Shown piece after piece: positions 50,030 through 57,982 of a DNA stretch of 64,000 nt. Numbering within the stretch: position 1 is the first letter of the stretch; the number at the start of each line of letters is the position of its first letter. Made by a program: the position numbers and the translations under genes. Under the pieces are notes generated by a model, which saw only the letters and a program-made list of their open reading frames with translations, was not told the DNA's origin and did not search any database. This DNA is from Nitrospirota bacterium (lineage in GTDB: Bacteria > Nitrospirota > Thermodesulfovibrionia > Thermodesulfovibrionales > UBA6898): assembly GCA_016214855.1 (NCBI GenBank), contig JACRMT010000004.1, forward strand, positions 372,001 to 436,000, written 5' to 3'.

Positions 50030-50198
50030 TAACAGCTAATCGGGTAGCGGAGGTAATTAACCCCCAGACCCCTCAACACTCGCCATGCGGGTTCGCAGTG
50101 TGCGTATGGAAGTGAGCCTCTGTTTCTTTAGATGCGCATTCGATAGCTCGCAATTCGTTGAAAGAGCGACTGACTTATGTCGACCGAAAATAGAATAC

Positions 50199-50230
50199 TT
50201 GACTCTGGACTTGACTCAAGGGTTTATAAT
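50199..50230 (+). promoter_or_regulatory. MerR/ZntR-type promoter-operator overlapping the merA-like start
   Basis: TTGACT (50199-50204) and TATAAT (50225-50230) are 20 bp apart, the elongated spacing typical of promoters activated by MerR-family regulators. The spacer contains an imperfect dyad beginning ACTCTGGACTTGACTCAAGG, close to the ACTCTGGAGTCGACTCCAGAGT-type ZntR operator in its left half. The -10 box touches the ATG at 50231. No merR gene is present in the window. Confidence 0.45.
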
Positions 50231-51625
50231 ATGAAATATGATCTCTTAATCATTGGCGGCGGCTCTGCGGCTTTTGCTGCGGCCCTCAAGGCGGCAGGCA
50301 TAGGAAACAAGAAAATCGGCATCATTGAATATGGACCTATCGGTGGGACCTGCGTTAATCGAGGTTGCATTCCTTCAAAGAGTCTCCTGAGGGCGGGTGA
50401 GATCTTGTACTATGGCACTCGTCCACGCTATAAAGGCATAACCCTCAAAGGCACAATCGACCTTTCAGAGATAGTCAGACAGAAAGACAGTCTTGTAAAA
50501 GAACTAAGAAAAAAGAAATACCTCGATATCCTAAGAGCCGTCCCGCAGATCGAGCTTATCAGGGGAAAGGCTGAATTTGTCGCGTCTGATGAGGTCAGGA
50601 TCGGTAAGAAAAGGATCTCAGCAGAAAAGTTCATCATCGCAACAGGAGCGAGACCGGCTGTTCCTGCTATTCCCGGTATCGAGAAGGTCCCGTCTCTGAC
50701 GAGCACCGAGGCATTGAATCTGACCAAAATTCCGGGGTCCATCACGATCATCGGCGGGAGGTTTACAGCTCTTGAGTTCGCTCAGATATTCAGGCACTTC
50801 GGCTCCGAGGTGACCGTCCTCCAACGGAGCGGCAGGATAGTGCCCGAGGAGGAAGAGGATATTTCGGAGGAAATGAAGAATCTCCTGATAGGGGAGGGAA
50901 TTAGAGTTTACACAGGCGTGAAGATCATGGGCTTCGATAGGCGGAAGGACAAAATTTATACCCATGCCGAAATTTCAGGAAAGAGCCGTAGGATAGCTTC
51001 TGACAGTCTCATGATGGCGACAGGGATAACACCAAACACTGACCTGAATCTTGAAATCGCCGGAGTGAAGTTGGACGATAGGGGTTTTCTCATCGTAAAT
51101 GATTCCGTGAGGACGACCGCTGACCATATTTGGGCTGCAGGTGATGTGACTGGAAAGATGCCACTTGTTACAGTTGCGGGATACCAGGGCGCTATTGCAG
51201 GAGAGAATGCGGTGGCCGGCTCTCAGAAGACAGCGGACTACGTGACAGTACCGCACACGATATTCACTTCACCGCAGATCGCATCAGTGGGTCTGACCGA
51301 AAGAGAGGCGGAAGCGAAGTACATCAAGTGCATATGCAGGGAGCTTCCCATGAAGTATGTTCCACGGGCAAAGGCGGTCCATGATACAAGGGGGCTTATC
51401 AAGATGGTCGCCGAAGCTGAAACCGGACGTGTTCTTGGCATCCATATCCTTTCGCATGAGGCCTCAGAGGTGATTCACCAGGGCGTTCTGATTTTGAGAA
51501 ACAGAATGACCGTGCAGGAAGTGGCTGAAAAGATAGACGTATATCCAACAATGAGTGAGATGATCAAGCTTTGCGCGCAAAGCTTTTTCAGAGATATTGA
51601 GATGCTCAGTTGTTGCGCTGAGTAG
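50231..51625 (+). CDS. MerA-like FAD/NAD(P)-disulfide oxidoreductase (mercuric reductase)
   Basis: About 464 residues from the ATG at 50231, which has an AAGGG element 8 bp upstream and begins at the FAD fold (MKYDLLIIGGGSAAFAAA). An upstream in-frame ATG at 50177 would add 18 residues. The redox-active disulfide is in GGTCVNRGCIPSKSLL. The NAD(P) fold (ITIIGGRFTALEFAQIF), ATGITPNTDL and AAGDVTGKMPLVTVAGYQG follow. The C-terminal LSCCAE matches the metal-binding vicinal Cys pair of MerA. The N-terminal MerP-like domain is absent, as in many environmental MerA proteins. It reduces Hg(II) to Hg(0) with NADPH in the cytoplasm. The merF-like gene follows 11 bp later. Confidence 0.85.
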   Translation: MKYDLLIIGGGSAAFAAALKAAGIGNKKIGIIEYGPIGGTCVNRGCIPSKSLLRAGEILYYGTRPRYKGITLKGTIDLSEIVRQKDSLVKELRKKKYLDILRAVPQIELIRGKAEFVASDEVRIGKKRISAEKFIIATGARPAVPAIPGIEKVPSLTSTEALNLTKIPGSITIIGGRFTALEFAQIFRHFGSEVTVLQRSGRIVPEEEEDISEEMKNLLIGEGIRVYTGVKIMGFDRRKDKIYTHAEISGKSRRIASDSLMMATGITPNTDLNLEIAGVKLDDRGFLIVNDSVRTTADHIWAAGDVTGKMPLVTVAGYQGAIAGENAVAGSQKTADYVTVPHTIFTSPQIASVGLTEREAEAKYIKCICRELPMKYVPRAKAVHDTRGLIKMVAEAETGRVLGIHILSHEASEVIHQGVLILRNRMTVQEVAEKIDVYPTMSEMIKLCAQSFFRDIEMLSCCAE

Positions 51626-51636
51626 AGAGAGCAAGA

Positions 51637-51858
51637 ATGGAAAAGAGAGAACAGACTTTGAGGAAAAGATTTTATGCGGCGCTCAGCGGTACGTTCATCG
51701 TGGCGATATGCTGTTTTACGCCCGTTCTTGTTGTCCTTTTTGCAGTGGTGGGCCTGAGTGCTTTTACGTCCTATCTGGATTATGTGCTCTACCCTGCTTT
51801 GGTGATTCTCATAATTCTGACTGTCTATTCTTACCGGCAATGGAAGAAGTCGCAATAG
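51637..51858 (+). CDS. merF: MerF mercury transporter
   Basis: A 73-residue membrane protein with two transmembrane helices. AICCFTPVLVVLFAVVGLSA carries the vicinal Cys pair that binds Hg(II), and YLDYVLYPALVILIILTVY forms the second helix. This matches MerF closely in motif and length (about 80 residues). It imports Hg(II) across the inner membrane for reduction by MerA. It lies between the reductase and the thioredoxin-like gene in one compact unit (gaps of 11 and 22 bp). The second, cytoplasmic Cys pair of classical MerF is not present. Confidence 0.9.
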   Translation: MEKREQTLRKRFYAALSGTFIVAICCFTPVLVVLFAVVGLSAFTSYLDYVLYPALVILIILTVYSYRQWKKSQ

Positions 51859-51880
51859 TATAGATTGCAGGAGGTGTTTT

Positions 51881-52177
51881 GTGAAGATCGAGTGCTATAT
51901 GTCTGCAGGGTGCGGGGCTGAGGAACTCTTGCGGGCGAATGTGAGGGCAGCCGTCGAAAGGGAAGACGTAGCCGCAGAGGTGATATTCCGCCGCATAACG
52001 GATAAAGAGGCTTCTGCGCTTGAGATCAAAGGTTCGCCCTCTGTGCTCATTAATGGCGTGGACATCGAACCGCAGGAGATGGCGGGATTTTCCTGAAGGA
52101 TGTTCACTGACGAGTCAGGCAGACTCATGAACGTACCGTCAGTCGAGATGTTGAGAAGAGCAATACGGAAACATTAG
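51881..52177 (+). CDS. Thioredoxin-like selenoprotein (SaoT-like) read through an in-frame TGA
   Basis: Starts at GTG with a GCAGGAGG ribosome-binding site. The first 71 residues form a small thioredoxin-like domain: CYMSAGCGAEE at the N-terminus, and GSPSVLINGVDIEPQE. A TGA (52094-52096) then interrupts the frame, which continues for 26 codons to TAG at 52175-52177 as RMFTDESGRLMNVPSVEMLRR. In relatives the family pattern, as I recall it, is G-(F/L)-S-C-R-x-(Y/F)...PS(V/T)E, so the TGA falls on the Cys and is read as selenocysteine, residue 72 of 98. A hairpin fitting a bacterial SECIS follows. The position next to merA and merF fits a role in mercury or organomercury handling. I recall a thioredoxin-like (seleno)protein family named SaoT in a predicted organometal system. 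Confidence 0.82.
52102..52132 (+). promoter_or_regulatory. Candidate bacterial SECIS element of the thioredoxin-like gene
   Basis: The outer stem GTTCA/TGAAC (52102-52106 with 52128-52132) and inner stem GAGTC/GACTC (52112-52116 with 52122-52126) close a five-base loop AGGCA. The GG of the loop lies 22-23 nt after the TGA, within the known 16-37 nt range and close to the fdhF arrangement (AGGUCU loop). Confidence 0.7.
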
Positions 52178-52229: not shown

Positions 52230-52559
52230 CTATTTCTCCAAGTCTTTCTTCTTATCCTCAAACTCCTCTTTGTTTATCTCTCCATGGGCGTACCTTTTCT
52301 TGAGAATCTCGATCGCCGAATCATCATGACCCTTGTTGCGCGAACCGGAGCCAGTAGACGTTATAATCCATCTGATAAGAAGAACAACAGCCACAATTAC
52401 AACGATCCAAAATACGAACATGAAGAAAAAACCCGGCCAGCCCATTCCAAATCCCCAGCCCATCATTCCGGGTCCCATCACTCCCGGTTCGTGAGCATCA
52501 GCGGAAGTGATCGTCATCAAAGAAAGTATCGCGGTCAAGAAACCCAATAGCTTTTCCAT
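52230..52559 (-). CDS. Small SHOCT-domain membrane protein
   Basis: A 109-residue protein from the Met at 52559 (AAGGAG six bases upstream; the frame opens at 52574). It has a signal-like N-terminus (LLGFLTAILSLMTITSADA), a Gly/Met-rich stretch (GVMGPGMMGWGFGMGWPG), one membrane helix (WIVVIVAVVLLIRWII) and a C-terminal SHOCT motif (AIEILKKRYAHGEINKEEFE). Proteins of this plan are common near metal-resistance and heavy-metal efflux genes, and Met-rich segments can bind copper or silver. Function is unproven. Confidence 0.75.
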   Translation of the reverse strand: MEKLLGFLTAILSLMTITSADAHEPGVMGPGMMGWGFGMGWPGFFFMFVFWIVVIVAVVLLIRWIITSTGSGSRNKGHDDSAIEILKKRYAHGEINKEEFEDKKKDLEK

Positions 52560-52640
52560 TGTATTCTCCTTCACTAACGTTTGCGCGACGGCTCAAGCCC
52601 ACCGATATGAGGCCTACACGTCAAACCCTAAAAAAAGGAC

Positions 52641-54869: not shown

Positions 54870-55202
54870 TTACAGGGAGAGTTTGTCTACCGCATTGTGT
54901 GCCTGTATGCCATGGATCAGGGACGCGCCCCCCCTGACTGCAGAAGCTACATGCACAGCCTCAGTTATGTGCTCCAGGCTCATGCCCTCCTCAAGGCAGC
55001 TCTTGGTATATGCATCAATGCAGTAAGGGCACTGGATGGCGTGAGCAACCGCCAGCCCAATTAATACTTTTTCTCTTTTACTAAGCACCCCCGGCTGGAG
55101 GGCGGCAGTGTACCAGCTCATGAATTTCTTGAAAAGCTCAGGACTGCATTTACCAATCTCACCGAAACGGTCGAGGTCTTCACTATTGTAATACTCGGTC
55201 AT
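54870..55202 (-). CDS. AhpD-like carboxymuconolactone decarboxylase-family protein of arsenosugar loci
   Basis: A 110-residue single-domain protein with the AhpD-type redox motif CPYC in AVAHAIQCPYCIDAYTKSC, followed by AVHVASAVRGGASLIHG. The beginning MTEYYNSEDLDRFGEIGK matches the peroxidase-like proteins that accompany ArsM and ArsS in arsenosugar-type clusters. It is probably a thiol-dependent peroxidase or disulfide reductase protecting thiols that bind As(III). A strong GAGGAG ribosome-binding site is present, and it is 33 bp downstream of the DUF3047 gene. Confidence 0.85.
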   Translation of the reverse strand: MTEYYNSEDLDRFGEIGKCSPELFKKFMSWYTAALQPGVLSKREKVLIGLAVAHAIQCPYCIDAYTKSCLEEGMSLEHITEAVHVASAVRGGASLIHGIQAHNAVDKLSL

Positions 55203-55235
55203 ATTTTCTTCTCCTCACGCCAGTAATGGGACATC

Positions 55236-55973
55236 TCATTTAAACACTTCTATAAAATCAATATATGAAACTGATTTTTCGCCGGTATTGTCTGAATCAT
55301 TCATAATCGCGAGGCTCGCAGTTGATGGAGGGAGAGTGCCAAAGACCTCCTTATAGTCCTCCACAATATTGACTTCCTCCGGCCTCCATTTCCCGACATT
55401 GTCGCCGCCGGCCTCCAATATCAACATCTTTGATTCTTCGGCAAAAGGATTTGTAATAATACGCCTGTCATGTTTTCTGCTTTCCCATATATAGGTCAGG
55501 CTGCTGTGTGGGGGGTATTCCCCATAAATTGCCTTTGCAAGTCCATACCTTATTCGCTGGCCAAGAGAGGCTTTATCGGGATCATATTTGAAAATGACAT
55601 ATACTCTAATCGGATAATCGTCCCCTGATTTTTCTTCGGCATTTCCCTTTATGTAGACATTGCTTATCTTCCAGAGCCACTTTATCCTTGGATATGCAGA
55701 AACATTGAATTCCTTCTTCAGAATCAGTCCTGACGCAGATGCATTACTCTCAGCTCTGAGATAGCTCCTGTCGCCATCTTTTTCTATGGTATACTCCGTA
55801 TGTTTTTTAATCTTAGGAAAGAACAGCGGCCTCCAGTTGTGGAGATCGTTGAAATCTTCCCGTAAAAATACTCCATCATCCTGAGCATAAAGATTGATAC
55901 AGCTCAGCAAAATAAGTAATAACGAACCTGCCGCGATAAACCAACTTATTACAGCAAAATCCCGCTTTTTCAC
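55236..55973 (-). CDS. Exported DUF3047 protein
   Basis: A 245-residue exported protein starting at GTG directly after the arsM stop (TGA-GTG), hence translationally coupled. The signal peptide is AAGSLLLILLSCINLYA. The body is a beta-sandwich of DUF3047 type: REDFNDLHNWRPLFFPKIKKHT, YPRIKWLWKISN, YGEYPPHSSLTYIWES and SKMLILEAGGDNVGKW. Function is unknown. The position in the arsenic operon suggests an envelope role for a methylated or glycosylated arsenical, but this is inference. Confidence 0.75.
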   Translation of the reverse strand: MKKRDFAVISWFIAAGSLLLILLSCINLYAQDDGVFLREDFNDLHNWRPLFFPKIKKHTEYTIEKDGDRSYLRAESNASASGLILKKEFNVSAYPRIKWLWKISNVYIKGNAEEKSGDDYPIRVYVIFKYDPDKASLGQRIRYGLAKAIYGEYPPHSSLTYIWESRKHDRRIITNPFAEESKMLILEAGGDNVGKWRPEEVNIVEDYKEVFGTLPPSTASLAIMNDSDNTGEKSVSYIDFIEVFK

Positions 55974-57041
55974 TCAGCAGCATGCCCCTCCGCTGCATCC
56001 ACTATCGGCATTTTCCGCTTTCGCAGAGGCAGGCGCACAATCAAAGGGTCCATAGTGAGTCTTTCTATCGCCCACAATCCGAAAATGTTCGAAGAACCTG
56101 GTATTTTGAAGCATGGATGCCGTATTGCCACACACGAGCATTGGCTTGCCGGCAATAAATCTATGGTGATCATCCAGATCGAAGAAATGGGGACTTCCCG
56201 GCATCGTTCCCTTGTAGATTGCTACCTGTCCGTAGTCCTCGCAGATGTCCTCAAGGTCGCTCAGCTTAAACGCTCGTATGGTCATCGAATAAAAATCGAC
56301 CATCCCTATCTTCTCACTGATCTGAGGATTATCAATGGCTATTCTTCGCTTTGAGACCACCCGATAATCCGTGCATCCGATGTCGCGTAAGAGCCGCCGA
56401 AAGTCTTCGATGTACATCGCACCGGCCAGGCACTCTCCCCGAAGCACCTGATCGTCTTTAAGCTGGTCAGGAATTCTTCTGCCTGCAAACACGTCCGAGA
56501 AATAGAGCTCTCCGCCCGGTTTCAGTACTCTGAAGATTTCACTGAAGACCGCAGCTTTATCCGGAGAAAGGTTGATGACACAGTTGGAGATCACTACATC
56601 AACGGAATTATCCTCAATGTCAGCAGTCTGAAGGTCCTCAATATATCCGCATTTAAAGTCGACATTCGGCCTGTCGTATCCAAATCTCTTCATCTGGGAT
56701 TCGACATGTCTTCGTCCCACCTCAAGCTGCTCCTCGGTCATATCGACACCTATAACAAAGCCCTGATCTCCGACAAGTCTGGATACGATATAAACGTCCC
56801 TGCCGGTCCCACACCCCAGATCCAGAACCGTAGCCGAATTGAGGAGCGGTGGGATTGGCGAGCCACAACCGTAGAAGCGATCGAGTATTTCCTTGTCAAT
56901 GTGGCTAAGGGCCTCTTTTACCTCCGCCGGTATACCTTCATCCGTGCAACAGCAGGCACTTGTTTGAAGATCTTTTGTTCCACCGAGGATCTTCCCGTAG
57001 TATTCTCTCAGATTATCATGTGTTTTCGAATCAGTTTTCAT
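55974..57041 (-). CDS. arsM: Arsenite S-adenosylmethionine methyltransferase ArsM
   Basis: A 355-residue enzyme that methylates As(III) using SAM. It begins with the YYGxxLxxTxDL-type motif of arsenosugar-associated ArsM (LREYYGKILGGTKDLQTSACC). The SAM fold has VLDLGCGTGRDVYIVSRL. The As(III)-binding Cys are present in TSACCC, DVVISNCVINLSPDK and GECLAGAM. A Cys-rich tail (ADSGCSGGACC) follows. AAGGAGATATAA precedes the ATG. The DUF3047 gene is coupled to its stop codon, and the aquaporin ends 18 bp upstream. With arsS 4 kb upstream on the same strand, it points to arsenosugar or dimethylated-arsenical metabolism. Confidence 0.92.
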   Translation of the reverse strand: MKTDSKTHDNLREYYGKILGGTKDLQTSACCCTDEGIPAEVKEALSHIDKEILDRFYGCGSPIPPLLNSATVLDLGCGTGRDVYIVSRLVGDQGFVIGVDMTEEQLEVGRRHVESQMKRFGYDRPNVDFKCGYIEDLQTADIEDNSVDVVISNCVINLSPDKAAVFSEIFRVLKPGGELYFSDVFAGRRIPDQLKDDQVLRGECLAGAMYIEDFRRLLRDIGCTDYRVVSKRRIAIDNPQISEKIGMVDFYSMTIRAFKLSDLEDICEDYGQVAIYKGTMPGSPHFFDLDDHHRFIAGKPMLVCGNTASMLQNTRFFEHFRIVGDRKTHYGPFDCAPASAKAENADSGCSGGACC

Positions 57042-57059
57042 TTATATCTCCTTGATAGT

Positions 57060-57884
57060 TTAATTGCATTTGCACATACCCGTATTTTTCTTGCTTTTCA
57101 TCAGCGGCTCAATAAGTCCTGTAAACACCAGCGAAGCAATACCGGCTCCTAAAATCGGTCCCCCAACGTAGACAGCGAGCGATCCGTACCAACCATTGGC
57201 AAGAGCTGCCCTGTCCCATCCCAGAAGCATTGAGAAAAGCCTTGGGGAAAGGTCCCGTGCCGGATTGAGACCGGTCTGTGTAAGGGGAGCTGTCACCGAA
57301 ATTATAAGAGCAACAGTCAATCCTATGAAAAGCGGGGCCATCATATCATCAGGTCTTCCCAGATTGCAGCCTTCAGTCAGAGTAAATATCAAGAATACAA
57401 GGATAAAAGTACCGATGCCTTCCGTAATTACAGCAGTAAGCGTACTAACCGATGCAGCCGCTCCTGCGCCTGGATTAGGATAGAACTCTCCGAACATCAT
57501 CGCTGTCTTAACCGATTCAGTCCCTCCTCTTACAATTCCGTGAATCTCCTCGAAACGCGCAATAGATTCGCCAAATATGAGATAGAGCACCGCAGCGGCG
57601 AAAAACGCTCCGGCAAACTGGGCGATGATGTAGACTGGCAGCCTCCGGGCTGACATCCTTCCCCCTATTACCATAGCAATGCTGACAGCAGGGTTCAGGT
57701 GTGCGCAGGAGAGATGTCGTGTTGCGTAAATCGCTATGGTGACACCAATTCCCCAAACAGCCGCTACCTGAAAAAGGCCCACATGAGAGGAGAACATTAC
57801 AGTGACGGCAACTGAGCTGCATCCGAAAAAGACCAGCAGGAAGGTGCCGATAAATTCACCCGCAAAATCATGCTTATATGTCAA
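57060..57884 (-). CDS. Aquaporin/aquaglyceroporin-family channel
   Basis: About 274 residues from TTG at 57884, chosen because GGGAGG lies 6 bp upstream and the frame then starts TYKHDFAGEFIGTFLLVFFG as in MIP channels. The ATG at 57980 lies inside the upstream hairpin. Both pore motifs are present (HLNPAVSIAM and GLNPARDLSPR), with six membrane helices and a short Cys tail (GMCKCN). Aquaglyceroporins conduct arsenite and methylarsenicals. Its position immediately before arsM suggests movement of As(III) or of a methylated product across the inner membrane. Confidence 0.88.
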   Translation of the reverse strand: MTYKHDFAGEFIGTFLLVFFGCSSVAVTVMFSSHVGLFQVAAVWGIGVTIAIYATRHLSCAHLNPAVSIAMVIGGRMSARRLPVYIIAQFAGAFFAAAVLYLIFGESIARFEEIHGIVRGGTESVKTAMMFGEFYPNPGAGAAASVSTLTAVITEGIGTFILVFLIFTLTEGCNLGRPDDMMAPLFIGLTVALIISVTAPLTQTGLNPARDLSPRLFSMLLGWDRAALANGWYGSLAVYVGGPILGAGIASLVFTGLIEPLMKSKKNTGMCKCN

Positions 57885-57950
57885 TGGGTACCTCCCAATA
57901 TTATCCAATATATAATCGAATATACGTAACAATTTAATAATTGTGAACTG

Positions 57951-57982
57951 AGGTGGGAGAACATTGCGCTGCTCTCCCACCT
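57951..57982 (-). terminator. Hairpin between cytochrome c and aquaporin genes
   Basis: A perfect 10-bp stem (57951-57960 with 57973-57982, AGGTGGGAGA and its complement) closes a 12-nt loop, 10 bp after the cytochrome c stop. There is no run of T after it on the minus strand, so it may attenuate or protect the transcript end rather than fully terminate. Confidence 0.5.

Follow-up and report, generated by a model that had tools for sequence, protein, structure and literature searches.

A predicted selenoprotein related to the DF family encoded behind merA and merF in a Nitrospirota bacterium

The principal finding in the 64,000-nucleotide stretch of Nitrospirota DNA analysed here (the window) is a short gene directly behind merA and merF whose product, a DF-like protein with a thioredoxin fold (Sec-DF), is almost certainly a selenoprotein. 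The gene stands third in a merA-merF-DF operon, and we propose that SelB and tRNA-Sec decode UGA72 as selenocysteine, aided by a hairpin just downstream; this mode of decoding is strongly supported by the sequence data. The protein would act in the detoxification of thiophilic metal(loid)s. The features concerned are collected in Table 1.

Table 1. Features of the predicted merA-merF-DF operon (positions in the window)
Feature	Position	Strand	Details
merA, mercury(II) reductase	50177..51625	+	482 aa; TIGR02053, 543.6 bits (cut-off 454)
merF, mercury transport protein	51637..51858	+	73 aa; NF033565, 88.5 bits (cut-off 50); PF11431
GGAGG ribosome-binding site of the Sec gene	51870..51874	+	read directly from the letters
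Predicted Sec-containing DF-like thioredoxin-fold protein	51881..52177	+	98 aa, GTG start, Sec72, TAG stop; NF049942 match
In-frame TGA, codon 72, selenocysteine reading	52094..52096	+	same alignment column as the TGA of the 52 other Sec homologues and the Cys of the Cys homologues
Bacterial SECIS-like stem-loop	52098..52137	+	folding, synonymous-codon test, rules of PMC13188914
Lower helix of the stem-loop	52098-52106 with 52128-52134 and 52136-52137	+	
Apical stem of the stem-loop	52112-52116/52122-52126	+	5 bp, encloses loop AGGCA (52117-52121)

The initial annotation had described a frame that is cut by a TGA and continues for 26 codons to a normal stop. Translation with TGA read as selenocysteine (U) bears this out, giving 98 residues with U72 and 26 codons between TGA72 and the TAG at 52175-52177. 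Under translation table 11 the same frame yields a complete ORF of 71 aa, just as had been predicted for a standard annotation, and standard translation thereby cuts Sec-DF proteins off upstream of their key residue.

Two samples, 150 relatives and 296 genomes of a phylum sample, were searched in six frames with the NF049942 profile, and matches were obtained in 46 and 51 genomes, respectively. The window gene was itself recovered with one internal TGA, and a search of genome contigs for related loci led to one locus. Nitrospirota genomes yielded 53 homologues with a TGA, and in every one of them it is found at the site homologous to codon 72, although independent Sec members are fewer than 53 because the set includes several duplicates or near-duplicates (L058 and L059 are identical; L109, L112 and L113 are >90% alike). 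In these 53 homologues the tail approximates to G-[FILSV]-x-U-R-x-[FY]-x-D-E-S-G-R-L-x-N-V-P-S-V-E-x-L. Relatives had been expected to carry a Cys at the TGA position, and such homologues do align there: 11 Nitrospirota forms as well as forms encoded on actinobacterial plasmids. Homologues do not end at this site without Cys or Sec but have either TGA or Cys aligned with it. The Sec forms constitute one group in the tree (support 98/99), which supports this group as a whole while leaving the placement of the window protein within it unfixed. The ratio pN/pS is 0.27 after the TGA versus 0.33 before it (133 pairs, which share sequences), indicating that the downstream codons are under purifying selection, a check that the initial annotation had put forward.

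Two further observations concern individual homologues. In L075 (G073) a second TGA lies exactly at the Cys11 position, so that this may be a double-Sec protein; if it is not an error, it would identify the second chalcogen of the active site as residue 11. Two pairs of loci, L062 (G023) with L111 (G212) and L058 (G101) with L059 (G010), are near-identical or identical and yet come from genomes of different families, which may reflect either recent transfer or binning contamination.

As described initially, the hairpin downstream of the TGA has the loop AGGCA with its GG 22-23 nt from the TGA, but it does not start 6 nt after the TGA, as the lower helix begins at 2 nt. Its geometry agrees with all the published rules for bacterial SECIS elements, which specify a loop of 3-9 nt with a G in its first two positions, an upper stem of 4-16 bp, a distance of 16-37 nt between UGA and loop and an MFE of <= -7.5 (PMC13188914). 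The corresponding values in the window are 5 bp, AGGCA, 20 nt and -14.9 kcal/mol, and 52 of the 53 Sec homologues conform to the rules for stem, loop and distance in the form coded for this analysis.

On its own the hairpin is weak evidence, because the fold of the 48 nt from the TGA has a z of -1.81 and 10 of 200 shuffles were as good. It also lies within a conserved coding stretch, and conservation alone is therefore no proof. Covariation was abandoned, as RNAalifold returned no useful consensus hairpin from 38 downstream segments and no stem pair in these segments had changes on both sides. We used instead a synonymous-codon test, in which codons were redrawn 20,000 times from the usage of each locus. 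Stem pairs were kept in 172 of 190 cases in the 38 sequences, against an expectation of 119.8 (sd 6.3) and a maximum of 144 among the draws. In a second set of 13 previously unused sequences, mostly from one further family, all 65 pairs were kept (41.2, sd 3.7, expected; maximum 57). Within the 38 sequences the stem Ser codons are always TCN and never AGY, the Leu codon is CTC in 32 while CTG, TTG and TTA are absent, and the Glu codon is GAG throughout. This points to stem pairing that is kept through synonymous codon choice. An Rfam scan of the region gave nothing relevant.

A stop codon, a pseudogene or a sequencing error at TGA72 was rejected because the site is conserved in 53 sequences. 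That TGA72 is a true stop, with only the 71-residue protein being made and the tail a relic or a product of chance, is scarcely credible: the short ORF is complete under standard translation and the z of the hairpin by itself is unimpressive, but TGA, tail and stem-forming codons have been kept across many families and dozens of genera, the tail has a low pN/pS and Cys occupies the site in other homologues.

The genome also encodes the machinery for selenocysteine insertion, for which a search had been suggested. All four components scored over cut-off, with selA (615.9 bits) and selB (375 bits) together on contig C20, a tRNA-Sec (selC, 70.9 bits) and selD (343.5 bits). The selD gene (L096, G000:C2:175951-176877) has an in-frame TGA of its own near the N-terminus, in GCAGUAAK.

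The Sec-DF protein matches NF049942 (DF family (seleno)protein) over the complete profile (1-96/96; 60.8 bits, E 9.5e-17), with Sec or Cys at the same type of position, and by this criterion is a full-length relative of that family. As its score is below the curated cut-off of 70, which in the six-frame search no Sec form reached in either survey, we call it a DF relative rather than filing it as a member. Kinship with SaoT, which had been considered initially, was not upheld, and membership was rejected since no SaoT (NF040730) match was obtained at E<=0.1 in NCBIfam. The first description of DF, as the ‘hypothetical protein DF’ of deep-Sep (Xiao and Zhang 2025, PMC12013277), included one Sec member, from Desulfosediminicola flagellatus, and gave neither a homologue with TGA nor a function; its main text makes no mention of mercury, mercuric or merA.

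The thioredoxin-like fold suggested by the initial annotation is supported both by structure and by profile comparison. An AlphaFold model (pLDDT 86.6, from a two-row alignment, with one of five models good) corresponds to solved thioredoxins with Z 8-9 over 78 of 98 residues, while Foldseek E-values for this fold are only about 1e-3. Thioredoxin_3 (PF13192) scored 15.7 bits, under its gathering score of 24.8, and among PDB sequences a profile of 20 homologues detected the MJ0307 thioredoxin (1.9e-9). Thioredoxins of the MJ0307/MTH895 type (PDB 1fo5, 1ilo; Thioredoxin_3, ArsE family) are the nearest solved sequences and are alike in fold, in the place of the first Cys and in the cis-Pro loop. 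Sec-DF differs from them in having no CXXC (the residues from position 11 are C11-G-A-E) and in an extra C-terminal U/C-R-x-[FY] segment. The conserved core comprises Cys11, GSP51-53, Gly59, Sec/Cys72-Arg73 and Pro86, and of these S52, P53, G59, C/U72, R73 and P86 are invariant in 20 diverse rows. Cys11 is at the usual place of the first Cys, GSP is the cis-proline loop and Sec72 lies behind, in the invariant U/C-R motif.

Both merA and merF, named as partners from the outset, are genuine, scoring over their NCBIfam cut-offs, and lie with the Sec gene on the same strand, separated by gaps of 11 and 22 nt. The window MerA ends in MLSCCAE, with a vicinal Cys pair; at the other end it begins almost at the FAD-binding motif (profile position 1 corresponds to residue 21), and there is no Pfam match to an HMA (NmerA) domain. 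No MerR was detected within 4 kb of Sec-DF in the window; MerR is present at loci L055, L062, L064 and L065 and, according to tblastn, at L078. A scan for promoters and terminators gave nothing above shuffles. Convergent to the Sec gene is a SHOCT-domain membrane protein (52230-52574, minus strand); in L062 a homologue of it separates merA from Sec-DF. Arsenic-related genes are also found near the mer operon (54870-57980, minus strand), namely an arsenosugar-associated AhpD-like peroxidase (TIGR04169, 158 bits) and an ArsM-like methyltransferase of 355 aa, followed by an ORF that reads as aquaporin-like.

Among the relatives, MerF occurs in 3 of 150 genomes, and in all three Sec-DF is in the locus. 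MerA was found over cut-off in 11 relatives and Sec-DF adjoins it in 5, whereas the stretches read for the other 6 contain no DF-like frame; the MerAs next to Sec-DF have 467-482 aa, which leaves no room for NmerA. Three of the 8 MerB genes in relatives are fused C-terminally to Sec-DF (PF03243, E 4.7e-29), and a fourth such fusion (L111) comes from a genome of another family. Overall, mer genes lie within 4 kb of 7 of the 53 Sec-DF genes, four of the 7 being fused to MerB. On actinobacterial plasmids (Gordonia, Nocardia, Rhodococcus), Cys-DF is encoded beside and downstream of MerR, either alone or fused to MerB (PF03243, E 4.2e-42), and is mostly annotated as ‘alkylmercury lyase’ or hypothetical. 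The fused proteins (‘alkylmercury lyase family protein’) have an N-terminal DF domain with an invariant Cys-Arg, thus Cys for Sec, and MerB behind it, whereas the window protein stands as a polypeptide of its own, and its operon includes merA and merF while lacking merB. When mercury context is mapped on the tree, at least 4 changes are forced by the starred branches, so that recruitment to mer seems repeated and the association seems to have arisen several times.

A separate group of five MerB-like proteins, L128 (G042), L129 (G005), L130 (G062), L131 (G002) and L132 (G004), three of which come from the same genus as the window, has two in-frame TGAs each, in GQUGIE and in SAUSR/TUSR. In an alignment with PDB 5c17 each TGA coincides with one MerB2 Cys, the two being what we take to be the catalytic pair. 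Scores of 51 and 41 bits compare with a SaoL cut-off of 140, and these proteins are candidates for a bis-selenocysteine organomercurial lyase.

Hg(II) prefers selenolate over thiolate and binds Se more tightly than S, and the Sec72 selenol is a plausible ligand for Hg(II). The C-terminal Cys pair of MerA takes Hg(II), usually from NmerA or small thiols. Placed between the importer MerF, the lyase MerB (in relatives) and a MerA that lacks NmerA, Sec-DF is best read as an acceptor and carrier of Hg(II)/RHg+. The Cys11/Sec72 pair (with Cys5) would accept Hg(II) brought by MerF or, in relatives, freed by MerB, and Sec-DF would then pass the ion on to the two Cys at the C-terminus of MerA; that the protein is cytosolic, that it binds metal, that Cys11 pairs with Sec72 and that MerA receives the metal from it are points that we infer. 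Taken as a whole, this scheme of a merA-merF-DF operon with uptake of Hg(II) by Cys11/Sec72 and hand-over to MerA is the best explanation, and we regard it as reasonably probable. That the protein is a selenium-based mercury chaperone which replaces NmerA/MerP, bringing Hg(II) to MerA via a thiolate-selenolate site, is a tentative proposal. The likeness to these metallochaperones lies in the proposed task, delivery of Hg(II) to the MerA Cys pair; they have a ferredoxin-like HMA fold with GMTCXXC and are not homologous to Sec-DF.

A role confined to mercury, as initially suggested, has proved too narrow, because arsenic contexts (12 of the 53 Sec-DF genes have arsenic genes within 4 kb) outnumber mer contexts and neither kind of marker accompanies 34 of the 53; we therefore favour a wider role with thiophilic metal(loid)s. 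Loci of the ars type include L063, L066, L067, L069, L074, L079, L081, L086 and others, where the partners are an ArsP-like permease, ArsR, Acr3, ArsC and an ArsE-like thioredoxin, possibly amounting to a selenium-dependent arsenic module. Such company would also suit a thioredoxin-like protein whose selenol serves metal(loid) resistance as a general reductant, acting on oxidised partner enzymes or metal-thiol adducts and carrying no metal itself. Arsenate-reductase-like phosphatases, MerB and MerA are candidate partners, a Nitrospirota Cys-DF is indeed fused to an LMW-phosphatase/ArsC-like domain (PF01451, E 2.1e-14), and the fold with its cis-Pro is that of a thioredoxin. We nevertheless consider this rather unlikely, as the CXXC motif is absent, ars loci often have a thioredoxin-like protein with CXXC already, encoded separately (cluster CL7), and DF is fused to MerB, a lyase that needs removal of its product and not disulfide reduction. 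A housekeeping or oxidative-stress redox selenoprotein, incidentally placed after merF, is very improbable: most Sec-DF genes do lack a nearby metal marker, several lying beside rplQ or other ordinary genes, but the presence of DF in every MerF locus of the 150 relatives, the MerB fusions in two phyla and the repeated recruitment on the tree argue against coincidence.

The proposed carrier of Hg(II) resembles the Sao system in that selenoproteins are tied to organometal chemistry. According to the summary of Haft and Gwadz 2023 in PMC13188914, the Sao selenoproteins include the thioredoxin-like SaoT and the MerB-like SaoL, the latter with its Sec within the lyase, in a CU motif, whereas the Sec of the window protein belongs to a thioredoxin-like domain of its own; no sao genes were recognised beside the window Sec-DF. 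Other mercury-related selenoproteins are also known (SaoL, HgcA, HgcB, MerP, a putative mercuric transport protein and a putative mercuric reductase), and DF is already in NCBIfam and in a 2026 selenoprotein review as ‘Hypothetical protein DF’, the table of which has no entry for DF in metal loci. A link of DF to metals, its placement in mer operons and its fusions to MerB were not found in the literature searched, a scope outside which Haft's PMC9879109 and PMC12013261 lie. Within that same literature, there is no description of a genetically encoded selenol of this kind, carried by a thioredoxin-fold protein that belongs to a merA-merF operon here and is joined to MerB in relatives. The results of the current study extend the known Sec members of DF from one to dozens and provide a first strong functional lead, detoxification of mercury and arsenic, for a family that had been without a function.
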